Assembly (NCBI GenBank): GCA_030645235.1
Contig: JAUSMV010000030.1
Span: 1,608,988 to 1,672,987 of the forward strand
Direction of reading: 5' to 3'
From: Parvibaculum sp.
GTDB lineage: Bacteria; Pseudomonadota; Alphaproteobacteria; Parvibaculales; Parvibaculaceae
DNA: 64,000 bases
The position numbers and the translations under genes were made by a program. How positions within the stretch are numbered: the stretch's first letter is position 1; each line of letters starts with the position of its first letter. The notes beneath the pieces were generated by a model. It did not search any database and was not told where the DNA came from. It worked only from the letters and a program-made list of their open reading frames with translations. Shown one piece after another: positions 48,436 through 51,441 of the stretch.

Positions 48436-49028
48436 ACCTGAACCGCCTGACGGGCCCGCAACTCATCAAGGAGTGGCAAAAGCGGAAGACCAAGAATTGT
48501 AAAATAGTCACCGTCGATTTTCTCAAAAAGCTGAATGCCCGGTCCTTCAAGTTGATAACAACCAACACTTGTCATCACCTTATTGCCCACTGTTTGCAGA
48601 TAATGATCAAGATAAACGTCAGAAAAAGTACGCATTGTGAGATCGGCATGATCTGAATGACGCCAAATTATTTCAGCTCCCTGCGCGAGCACGATACCAC
48701 TATGGAGACGATGAACACGCCCACGAAACTTTTGTAAATTGGCACGCGCCTCCGCCATGTCACGCGGTTTATCAAACCGTTCACCTGCACAGGACAGAAT
48801 TTGATCGGCGCCGATAACCAGCGCATGAGGATATTGTGTACTCACGGCTTTTGCTTTGGCTTCAGCCAACAGGATCGCCAAGACATCAATGTCATTTTGA
48901 TCTGATCGGGTTTTGATCGCATCTTCATCGACGTACGAATTGCGCACGTCAAATGTTAGCCCAGCCTGATGCAAAAGCGTGGCGCGAACTGCACTGCCGG
49001 AGGCGAGAATGAGAACAGGATGAGACAT
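48432..49028 (-). CDS. maf: Maf family nucleotide pyrophosphatase
   Basis: House-cleaning pyrophosphatase that hydrolyses modified or canonical nucleoside triphosphates. From ATG 49028 it has 198 residues. [19 protein letters not shown] is the N-terminal Maf signature, [10 protein letters not shown] holds the active-site Asp, and [18 protein letters not shown] the C-terminal motif. The residues do not allow me to choose between the dTTP/UTP (YhdE) and m7GTP (YceF) subfamilies. A TTG at 49043, overlapping ppsR, is an alternative start. Confidence 0.93.
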
Positions 49029-49039
49029 ATCAAATATTG

Positions 49040-49864
49040 TCAATTCGTCTTTTGACGTTCATTGTAGAGATTGAGAATGGCAGCCGCTGTCTCTTCAATT
49101 GAGCGGCGTGTCACGTCGATAACCGGCCAACCATGACGGGCGCAAAGTTTGCGCGCAACGGCCACTTCTTCTTCCACGGCATCCTGATCGACATAACTTG
49201 TCTGTGTGTTTTCGTGCAGTGACAAAAGCCTGTTTTTGCGGATCAGAATAAGACGGTCCGGGCTTGTCGTGAGACCAACAATAAGCGGGTGCTGTGCTGT
49301 TTCAAGATCTGGCGGAAGAACGACCCCCGGCACGATCGGAATATTAGCAGCTTTAATGCCGCGATTGGCGAGATAAATGCAAGTTGGTGTTTTTGATGTA
49401 CGGCTAACGCCGACCAAAATCACATCGGCTTCATTCAGATCACCTGCCGACTGTCCGTCATCATGCGACATCGTATAATTGAGCGCTTCGATACGACCGA
49501 AATATTCGGCATTCATCGTGTGTTGCGAGCCGGGCTTGTGTGAACTTTCTTTGCCAAGATAACGACCTAGTGCACCCATCACCGGATCGAGAACCGAGAT
49601 ACATGGTGTTTGCAATTCAAGGCAACGTGCTTCGAGGCGTTGGCGCAGTTCATCATTCACCATCGTGAACATAACAATGCCGGGCGAACTTTCTATTTCG
49701 CCCAGGACGCGATCAAGCTGTTTGGGTCCACGCACCAACGCATAAACATGCTCAATAGGCTGCGCGTCTTCATATTGGGCACAGGCTGCACGCGCCACCG
49801 CATTCAGTGTTTCACCGGTTGCGTCTGAGACGAGATGGAGATGAAAGACGCGTCTCGATGCCAT
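49040..49864 (-). CDS. ppsR: Pyruvate, water/phosphate dikinase regulatory protein (DUF299)
   Basis: Bifunctional ADP-dependent kinase and pyrophosphorylase that switches PEP synthase or pyruvate phosphate dikinase off and on. From ATG 49864 (AGGA 5 bases upstream) the protein has 274 residues. It starts [20 protein letters not shown] and has the P-loop-like [15 protein letters not shown]-type motif with [16 protein letters not shown]. Its orthologue in Rickettsia is RP001, which borders the replication origin together with hemE; hemE is the divergent neighbour here as well, across 524 bp. Confidence 0.95.
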
Positions 49865-50228
49865 GCGGATCCTGAAGTTCCAAACAAATGAATTGGCCGC
49901 CAAGCTAACGAGCGGGCCTCATGCATGCCAGTCTTTTTGGTTCGCACGAACATATGGTTTGGGCTGTGGAAAGATGTGAGGAATGGGGAGAAGTCGCTTG
50001 TTTTGAGGAAGGGTCAAAATTTCATGCACCTCATTCGTTTTCCGTGAACCGAACCATCAGGCGGTTGAGAAAAAAAGAGTGCGGTTTGGAAATATGGGGA
50101 TCATTTGAAATGAAAGAGACACGCCGTGATATATCCACGTTGTTGTTTTTGTCCCCAGATTTTCTACAAACATAAGCAAACGGCTTCGAGATTGATGTTT
50201 GTCGGAAATGCACCAATAAGCGCCGTGT

Positions 50229-50237
50229 TTTTGCACA
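50229..50237 (+). promoter_or_regulatory. DnaA box
   Basis: TTTTGCACA matches the consensus TTWTNCACA at every position. It lies in the predicted origin, downstream of its AT-rich segment. Confidence 0.65.
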
Positions 50238-50270
50238 GGCTATGAGATAGAAAGAGGGCCGCACGAGCTT

Positions 50271-50279
50271 TGTGTATAA
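50271..50279 (-). promoter_or_regulatory. DnaA box
   Basis: TTATACACA on the minus strand matches TTWTNCACA exactly. It lies 34 bases from the plus-strand box, in the opposite orientation. Confidence 0.68.
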
Positions 50280-50388
50280 GGGATCGGTGCGTGTGGATGG
50301 TTCGGGTCCGCCTTTTAATCCCCGTGACGCACAGCCATCCTCAACTACCACCACCTAGATTCTAAGATTTATTGAAGAGAGAAAATCT

Positions 50389-51441
50389 GTGAGTACAAAA
50401 CCCGGAGCACCGCAGAAAAGACTCCTTCAGGTCTTAGATGGAAATAAGGCAGACCGGACACCGATCTGGCTTATGCGACAGGCGGGTCGTTATTTGCCGG
50501 AGTATCGTGAGACACGAGCAAAAGCGGGAAGTTTTCTTAATTTATGCTATTCGCCAGCGCTGGCCGAGGAAGTGACTCTGCAACCTATTCGTCGTTATGG
50601 CTTTGATGCGTCTATTCTTTTTTCGGATATTCTGGTTGTACCGGATGGGTTGGGGCAGACAGTAGGGTTCAAGGAGGGGGAGGGTCCGGTTCTTGATCCC
50701 ATCACGACGCCGGAAGGTTTGGACAAATTAGATTTGTCCCGTGTCGTCAAACACTTAGAGCCTGTTTATGAGACGGTGAAGAGGCTTACCAAATCGCTGC
50801 CGGAAGAAACAACGCTTATCGGATTTGCGGGGGCGCCGTGGACGGTTGCGACCTATATGGTGGGTGGACGCGGGTCGCCGGATCAGGGTGCAGCCAAGGC
50901 CTGGGCTTACAAAGAACCGCAAGAGTTTCAAAGACTTATTGATATTCTGACTGATGCGACGATCCTGCATTTGAGCGCGCAAGTTGATGCCGGCGTTGAG
51001 GTTTTGCAGATTTTTGATACCTGGGCGGGGTCACTTCCTGAAACTCAGTTCCGGAAATTTGCGATTGAGCCGGTGAAACGGATTGTTTCTTCGCTGAAAG
51101 CTAAGTATCCGCATGTACCGGTGATCGGTTTTCCGCGTGGAGCTGGTCCGTTAGTCCTTGATTATATTAAAGAAACAGGTATTCAGGGCGTAAGCCTTGA
51201 TACGGGAATGTCGCTTACCTGGGCGGCGGATGAGGTGCAAAAGCTTGCTTGTGTGCAGGGAAATCTTGATCCGTTGCTGCTTGTGGCGGGCGGCGGTGAG
51301 ATGCGAAATGCGATCAATAACATATTGAAAACATTAGAAAAAAGACCATTTATCTTTAATCTTGGTCATGGCATTGTGCCGCAAACACCGCCCGAGCATG
51401 TGGCAGAGTTGGTGAAACTTGTGAGGAATTACGGCAAGTGA
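50389..51441 (+). CDS. hemE: Uroporphyrinogen decarboxylase
   Basis: Cytoplasmic haem-pathway enzyme that removes four carboxyl groups from uroporphyrinogen III. The 350-residue product has TPIWLMRQAGRYLPEYRETR (the substrate-binding signature, in two parts TPIWLMRQAGRY and LPEYRETR), the active-site aspartate in LFSDILVVPDGLG, and GFAGAPWTVATYMVGG. GTG 50389 follows a GAAGAGAG site. It overlaps hemH by 4 bases and begins the hemE-hemH-hemJ-rho run on the right side of the predicted origin. Confidence 0.97.
   Translation: MSTKPGAPQKRLLQVLDGNKADRTPIWLMRQAGRYLPEYRETRAKAGSFLNLCYSPALAEEVTLQPIRRYGFDASILFSDILVVPDGLGQTVGFKEGEGPVLDPITTPEGLDKLDLSRVVKHLEPVYETVKRLTKSLPEETTLIGFAGAPWTVATYMVGGRGSPDQGAAKAWAYKEPQEFQRLIDILTDATILHLSAQVDAGVEVLQIFDTWAGSLPETQFRKFAIEPVKRIVSSLKAKYPHVPVIGFPRGAGPLVLDYIKETGIQGVSLDTGMSLTWAADEVQKLACVQGNLDPLLLVAGGGEMRNAINNILKTLEKRPFIFNLGHGIVPQTPPEHVAELVKLVRNYGK

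Follow-up and report, generated by a model that had tools for sequence, protein, structure and literature searches.

The question raised by this locus is whether a short intergenic gap serves as the chromosomal origin of replication (oriC) of Parvibaculum species. The gap, 524 bp long (49865-50388), lies within the window, which here means the whole 64-kb stretch of DNA analysed (64,000 nucleotides; G000:C58:1608988-1672987), taken from a genome assembled in 86 contigs. The closest named locus is from Parvibaculum, with 95% identity of PpsR in L005. To the left of the gap is ppsR (COG1806/DUF299; 49040-49864, minus strand), identified by NCBIfam PRK05339 at E 5e-104. To the right is hemE (50389-51441, plus strand, with a GTG start at 50389), identified by TIGR01464 at E 1e-123 and by its neighbour genes hemH, hemJ and rho. 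The minus strand carries dnaQ-coaE-aroE-maf-ppsR in this order, the plus strand hemE-hemH-hemJ-rho, and synteny extends from coaE-aroE-maf-ppsR across the gap to hemE-hemH-hemJ-rho. These gene identities confirm the flanks given in the preliminary description of the gap. Its reference to the Caulobacter and Rickettsia origins, which sit between the same two genes, hemE and COG1806/ppsR, is borne out by PMC1914354. The gap thus occupies the hemE-COG1806/ppsR location by which alphaproteobacterial origins are recognised.

The answer supported here is that the gap is very probably oriC, as had been proposed, since a skew minimum, synteny, DnaA-box blocks conserved across 26 gaps and a hemE-tied module found across alphaproteobacteria all point to it. 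It is an ordinary alphaproteobacterial origin in the usual gene neighbourhood. The gap has a G+C content of 46.6% (53.4% AT) against 56.0% for the 64-kb window, and so combines an AT content above the average of the window with a stretch of weak DNA. It had been called gene-free; it is indeed intergenic, but an open reading frame of 107 aa lies inside it (50031-50354, minus strand). Matches to this frame by tblastn at E up to 1 occur in the gaps of 9 of 25 relatives, the best, in L005, being 37% identical across 113 aa. The frame is poorly conserved overall and is probably not a gene. An Rfam scan of the window, which also served as the check for an origin RNA like CcnA of Caulobacter (PMC8959179), returned nothing at gathering score.

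The GC skew turns from about -0.10 just left of the gap to about +0.10 just right of it, the means over 10 kb being -0.033 and +0.105, respectively. The cumulative analysis called for in the preliminary description was run on a 360-kb part of the contig (1,431,001-1,790,991), and its minimum falls at window position 48966, 0.9 kb from the gap and not far from 50 kb. To the right, all 10-kb bins are positive up to the contig end, a distance of 130 kb. Within the 360 kb the bins to the left are weak and mixed in sign, and the sign also varies among eight 20-kb samples taken farther left. The switch is seen on 360 kb of one contig of the 86. For a complete relative (G002), a skew fit to 40 sampled 20-kb stretches, which alternate in sign, placed the origin at 1.265 Mb. 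The fit is broad, with positions scoring 95% of the best spanning 1.215-1.70 Mb. Its best score was reached by 2% of 2000 shuffles and the score at 1.388 Mb by none, although the grid for the shuffles was coarser than that for the observed best, a difference slightly in favour of the fit. Within one 20-kb stretch of G002, a local skew minimum lies at 1,386,901 and the module described below at 1,388,650 (about 1.3887 Mb). Skew supports the gap as the place of the origin, yet is not sharp genome-wide. An origin at dnaA (C58:1538164) was rejected, as the skew minimum is absent there.

Words matching the DnaA-box pattern TTWTNCACA occur in the gap as TTTTGCACA (50229-50237, plus) and TTATACACA (50271-50279, minus). 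One base off the pattern are CTTTCCACA (49965-49973, minus) and TTTTCTACA (50160-50168, plus), all four being present as first described. Two of the four exact words of the 64-kb window fall in the gap, for which our own arithmetic gives a chance of about 4e-4. Genome-wide, however, there are 146 such words against 118 for a reversed control word, and further close pairs stand among the 100 matches listed, such as C58:223584/223660 and C55:105589/105640. For these reasons consensus words were rejected as sole evidence for an origin. The full consensus TTATCCACA was not found in the gap, which contains one site within one mismatch of it. Three places in the 360 kb hold two near-consensus boxes (up to one mismatch) within 600 bp and are thus denser than the gap, and the region upstream of dnaB (TIGR00665) has a better pair, C58:223584/223660. 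Box pairs at C55:430017/430414 and C58:1707450/1707482 were likewise confirmed. A denser cluster elsewhere had been named as grounds for abandoning the gap. Such clusters exist in the literal sense; they are not counted as a refutation, because the one place among them with its genes identified, that upstream of dnaB, has no skew minimum, and because the genome contains no second match to the module at E up to 1. The dnaB pair was rejected as a rival origin for want of that minimum. Exact boxes stand upstream of dnaB (C58:223584-223668, L184; second box 76 bp off), gcrA (C58:1089037-1089045, L181) and, in the same genome, ctrA; this suggests that the dnaB and gcrA promoters may be regulated by DnaA.

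Clustering of DnaA boxes is clearer in the clade than in the window, where the boxes are mainly degenerate and no denser than at some other places. Across 26 Parvibaculum-clade gaps, 43 boxes lie within one mismatch of TTATCCACA (2.2 expected from a first-order Markov model); they occur in 24 of the gaps, and the window supplies one of the 43. The set leaves aside L029 and L041-L043, where hemE was not found upstream, and 12 gaps from the G-numbered genomes, each with a 100-bp stretch in common with a named locus. This comparison among related genomes, which had also been proposed, revealed conserved DnaA-box blocks. In 10-bp bins, conservation peaks at 49965-49984 and 50315-50324 and is also high at 50095-50104, 50135-50144, 50235-50244 and 50325-50354. 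Among the boxes first listed, the one at 49965 is well conserved, but the stretch around 50271-50279 is among the least conserved of the gap.

The first block (49965-49990, minus strand) carries TGTGGAAAGATGTG and contains TGTGGA in all 26 gaps; TTAACGG stands inside it in 22 and is absent from the window. The second (50131-50151, plus strand) is box-like, with ATATCCACG followed in the window by the T-rich TTGTTGTTTTTG; in 18 of the 26 gaps TTAAC follows the box instead. A third conserved element, TTTTGCACAGGCTATGAGATAGAA (50229-50252, plus strand), keeps CACAGGC..TG..ATAGAA in most of the 26. The box-like CCATCCACA (50292-50300, minus strand) has TGTGGA in 25 gaps and TGGGGA in L014.

The block of highest information lies beside hemE, where the boxes TAATCCCCG and TGACGCACA stand head to tail at 50316-50333 (plus strand). 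Each differs from TTATCCACA at three of nine positions, which makes them non-consensus boxes, and the alignments bring them out as a tandem. They are followed at 50334-50355 by an 11-nt spacer, by CTA at 50345-50347 (3'-GAT-5' on the opposite strand) and by CCACCACC, and then by weak DNA. CTA stands at spacer 11 in 23 of the 26 gaps. The whole module (50313-50362, plus strand) was made into a profile, R1, from 21 of the 26 clade gaps, with five near copies omitted, together with L032, L036 and L037. Among 27 Parvibaculum genomes, R1 gives a single strong match in each of 26, the next best having E 0.058; this count is partly circular, as most of the matched sequences built the profile. The remaining genome is 57% complete. 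In the genome of the window, the profile matches once, at the ppsR-hemE gap, and nowhere else at E up to 1.

A search of the class is less affected by this circularity. At E 0.01 under stricter filters, R1 matched 31 of 192 genomes, including that of the window and two of its family, and left 161 without a match, so that the module may not be universal among alphaproteobacteria. Of the 30 matches outside the genome of the window, 29 were examined (the match in G202 was left out). In 28 of these 29 loci the module lies 41-384 bp upstream of the hemE start on the same strand. ppsR is also present within 3 kb in 23 of the 29; L153 has neither gene. A description of the module was not found among the titles of the matches listed for DnaA-trios in Alphaproteobacteria or Caulobacter, and the supplement of PMC8287927 might contain one.

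Such findings bear on the idea that DnaA acts in the gap solely as a transcription factor, on a divergent promoter region between ppsR and hemE, and that the origin lies elsewhere, near dnaA or another box pair. The density of consensus boxes, no greater here than at some other places, and the better pair upstream of dnaB would fit this. Neither dnaA nor the dnaB pair has a skew minimum, though, while the boxes of the gap are conserved across the 26 gaps and the single R1 match of the genome is found there, and the promoter-only explanation is accordingly held to be very improbable.

The preferred reading, that of the gap as oriC, is considered probable in its full mechanistic form as well. 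DnaA would bind several weak boxes, near 49965-49984 and at 50131-50139, 50230-50236 and 50292-50300, and also the tandem boxes at 50316-50333 beside hemE. A DnaA filament would extend to the right from the tandem boxes and separate the strands of the weak DNA around 50345-50388. DnaB would be loaded there, and forks would depart in both directions.

Strand opening is most likely at 50345-50388, since the tandem boxes of the module, the 11-nt spacer and CTA lead into DNA less stable than any other in the gap. This predicted site is 65.9% AT, and its positions 50356-50385 form the weakest 30 bp of the gap; only 0.05% of the positions of the window are as weak. The weakest 30 bp fall within the last 80 bp in all 26 clade gaps, with 2.6 expected for independent gaps; the gaps are in fact not independent. 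The weak DNA coincides with the ribosome-binding region of hemE, so that part of its AT-richness has that other cause.

The arrangement recalls the BUS elements of Bacillus subtilis and others. By the published rule, three or more 3'-NAN-5' trios must stand no farther than 16 bp from a DnaA box; a spacer peak around 10-13 bp is reported, in a survey which, according to a figure legend, includes alphaproteobacteria (PMC8287927). The likeness consists of the tandem boxes, a spacer of 11 nt in 23 of the 26 gaps, which is inside the 10-13 bp range, a first trio of 3'-GAT-5' and the weak DNA beyond. The module departs from the rule in having one NAN trio rather than at least three in a row, as 50334-50355 reads CTA-CCA-CCA-CCT, and in that both boxes carry three mismatches. 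Among the 29 class loci, three 3'-NAN-5' trios in a row were found by automatic parsing in four (L138, L141, L146 and L159), and L036 carries CTACTACTACTACTAC. A loose form of the rule, admitting boxes of up to two mismatches (a guessed cut-off, from which the published one may differ), gave seven overlapping matches in the gap of the window, all outside the module. The mean for shuffled gaps was 0.54, and none of 1000 shuffles reached seven. Four of the matches run from 50131 (plus) into TTGTTGTTTTTG, with one each at 50271, 50095 and 49965 (minus). In the relatives, any loose match occurs in 10 of 25 gaps, seven of these having it at the hemE end, inside the final 82 bp. The loose-rule sites elsewhere in the gap, unlike the module, lack any conserved 3'-GAT-5'. 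The module may therefore work like BUS in a reduced form at most, and it is not classed as a BUS member.

It may also be asked whether the gap is oriC but opens in the middle, in the AT-rich segment first noted at 50075-50215, for example rightwards from ATATCCACG (50131-50139) into TTGTTGTTTTTG. In the window four 3'-NAN-5' trios come immediately after ATATCCACG, a box that gives four of the seven loose matches, and conserved blocks lie in the segment at 50085-50104, 50135-50144 and 50165-50174. The segment is richer in AT than the gap as a whole (58.9% against 53.4%), and to that extent the original observation stands; it is nevertheless less weak than 50345-50388, the weakest DNA being at 50356-50385. 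The four trios do not include 3'-GAT-5'. Of the 26 gaps, only those of the window and L005 have the T-rich run, with TTAAC at this place in 18 and TTCACA or TCCACA in six, and conservation is poor at 50105-50134, 50155-50164 and 50185-50204. Opening in the middle is thus judged less likely than opening beside hemE, and is an unlikely though not negligible alternative.

With the origin placed beside hemE, the question of its control by CtrA follows. The double site TTAA-N7-TTAA had been reported as missing, and it is absent from the gap of the window even allowing one mismatch. The absence is clade-wide, as TTAA-N5..8-TTAA does not occur in any of the 26 gaps and an N7 double site with one mismatch occurs once in all 26 (2.55 expected), not in the window. 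An IHF site of the form WATCAN5WTR was not found in the gap of the window either; among the 25 relatives, two gaps have one each. The regulators themselves are present. The genome encodes a CtrA 83% identical to a Caulobacter query sequence and above the cut-off of NF045991, as well as GcrA. A RAMA-domain protein fits CcrM over its matched part of 100 aa, and scored below the whole-protein cut-off because only this part was scanned. As a control, the ctrA promoter keeps TTAACCTTT[GA]TTAACC in 18 of 19 clade upstream regions, which shows that sites of the CtrA type can be recognised in these genomes. These regions come from 19 of 22 loci (L178-L180, with partial matches, were omitted), and L166, whose flank is misplaced, is omitted in the 18.

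The gaps of Methylobacterium and Microvirga (L020-L028, L030, L031, L034 and L038) share the same gene pair, and all 13 carry a DnaA box with no more than one mismatch. They differ in that every one contains at least one full TTAA-N7-TTAA (14 sites over the 13 gaps), against none of the 26 Parvibaculum-clade gaps. In the 11 Methylobacterium gaps, 197-198 bp separate the start of the double site from that of the DnaA box. Cori of Caulobacter crescentus, compared by description only, resembles the present gap in lying between hemE and COG1806 (ppsR) and in having several DnaA boxes along with a region rich in AT. Cori is described, however, as carrying CtrA double sites, five in number, and also a site for IHF (PMC1914354, PMC8959179), none of which was found here. 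The chromosomal origin of Sinorhizobium meliloti, also compared by description, is reported to lack CtrA motifs and not to be bound by CtrA, even though the protein itself is conserved (PMC4433202). The Rickettsiales origins (Rickettsia, Wolbachia, Ehrlichia) have hemE as a boundary gene, and some lack CtrA sites while retaining ctrA; they are mostly far more AT-rich, and IHF sites are reported for them (PMC1914354), whereas none was found here. CtrA of Brucella abortus reportedly does not bind the origin (PMC2877005), and that of Hyphomonas binds beside the origin (PMC7200025). Since the gap has no CtrA double sites, initiation is probably not blocked through them. The preliminary inference of a different control of initiation is reasonable but not new, CtrA-free origins being known in Sinorhizobium and some Rickettsiales; its novelty is small, as the absence is clade-wide and known in other lineages.

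The relatives of the window carry further elements in this region. In 18 of the 26 gaps, that of the window not among them, two TTAAC elements lie 163-164 bp apart, each adjoining a DnaA box (blocks 1 and 2), at places that correspond to about 49980-49985 and 50143-50147 of the window. The first is present in 22 gaps, which also include L005-L008, and the second in 18; neither the window nor L005 has TTAAC, TTCACA or TCCACA at the second place. In the middle of the origin, the pair flanks an inverted repeat, GGTCATACCCGT...ACGGGTATGACC, which is nearly invariant and encloses a loop of about 63 bp (L009, L010, L013, L015-L019, L039, L040, L079, L093, L098-L100, L102, L105 and L106). These 18 loci form one side of a branch in the PpsR tree, with modest support (69/76). 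An exact 11-mer search of five repeat-bearing genomes found both arms at the origin in four, with a single arm in G012 owing to a mismatch, and scattered single copies elsewhere at about the control level. An RNA stem is disfavoured, as the arms are nearly invariant and one pair has changed on both sides, in L013, where the changes in GGTCATACCCGT and ACGGGTATGACC match. A dyad bound by protein seems likelier.

The TTAAC elements raise the alternative that replication starts in the gap with CtrA acting through single half-sites instead of double sites. Half motifs are reported to function at Caulobacter promoters (PMC4287350), and the position of TTAAC beside DnaA boxes, at a nearly fixed distance, would suit such a role. 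The gap of the window, however, is itself without TTAAC, and this alternative is regarded as the least probable of those considered.

Upstream of ctrA in the genome of the window, an exact TTATCCACA stands 51-59 bp before the gene (G000:C55:308888-308896, L002), with one mismatch in the nearest relative, L160. Twelve of the 19 ctrA upstream regions have GGATTAAC at that position instead. A conserved DnaA box before ctrA was rejected as a clade feature, as a box near -60 within one mismatch occurs in two of the 19 (L002 and L160). Further DnaA sites lie at -235 to -296 in L160, L164 and L177.

A broader reading joins these elements and is offered as speculative and unlikely as a whole. Many alphaproteobacteria would share a hemE-proximal opening module, ATCCCCG-n2-ATCCACAG-GCATCCA-CTA plus weak DNA, working with a single or a few DnaA-trios. 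The control of the origin in the Parvibaculum clade would have been rewired, with CtrA double sites absent and, in most species, a TTAAC pair and the dyad GGTCATACCCGT/ACGGGTATGACC between DnaA boxes. The lineage of the window would have lost these and gained the exact DnaA box in the ctrA promoter. If this is true, the origin may no longer be timed by CtrA, and DnaA may set the timing of ctrA.

The finding fixes a testable origin for Parvibaculum, in a clade that retains ctrA, gcrA and a CcrM-like gene yet has no CtrA double sites at its origin. The contrast with the Methylobacteriaceae, where the site is present, opens the gain or loss of direct CtrA control to comparison. The 50-bp module can also locate hemE-linked origins in some alphaproteobacterial draft genomes in which skew and consensus boxes are weak.
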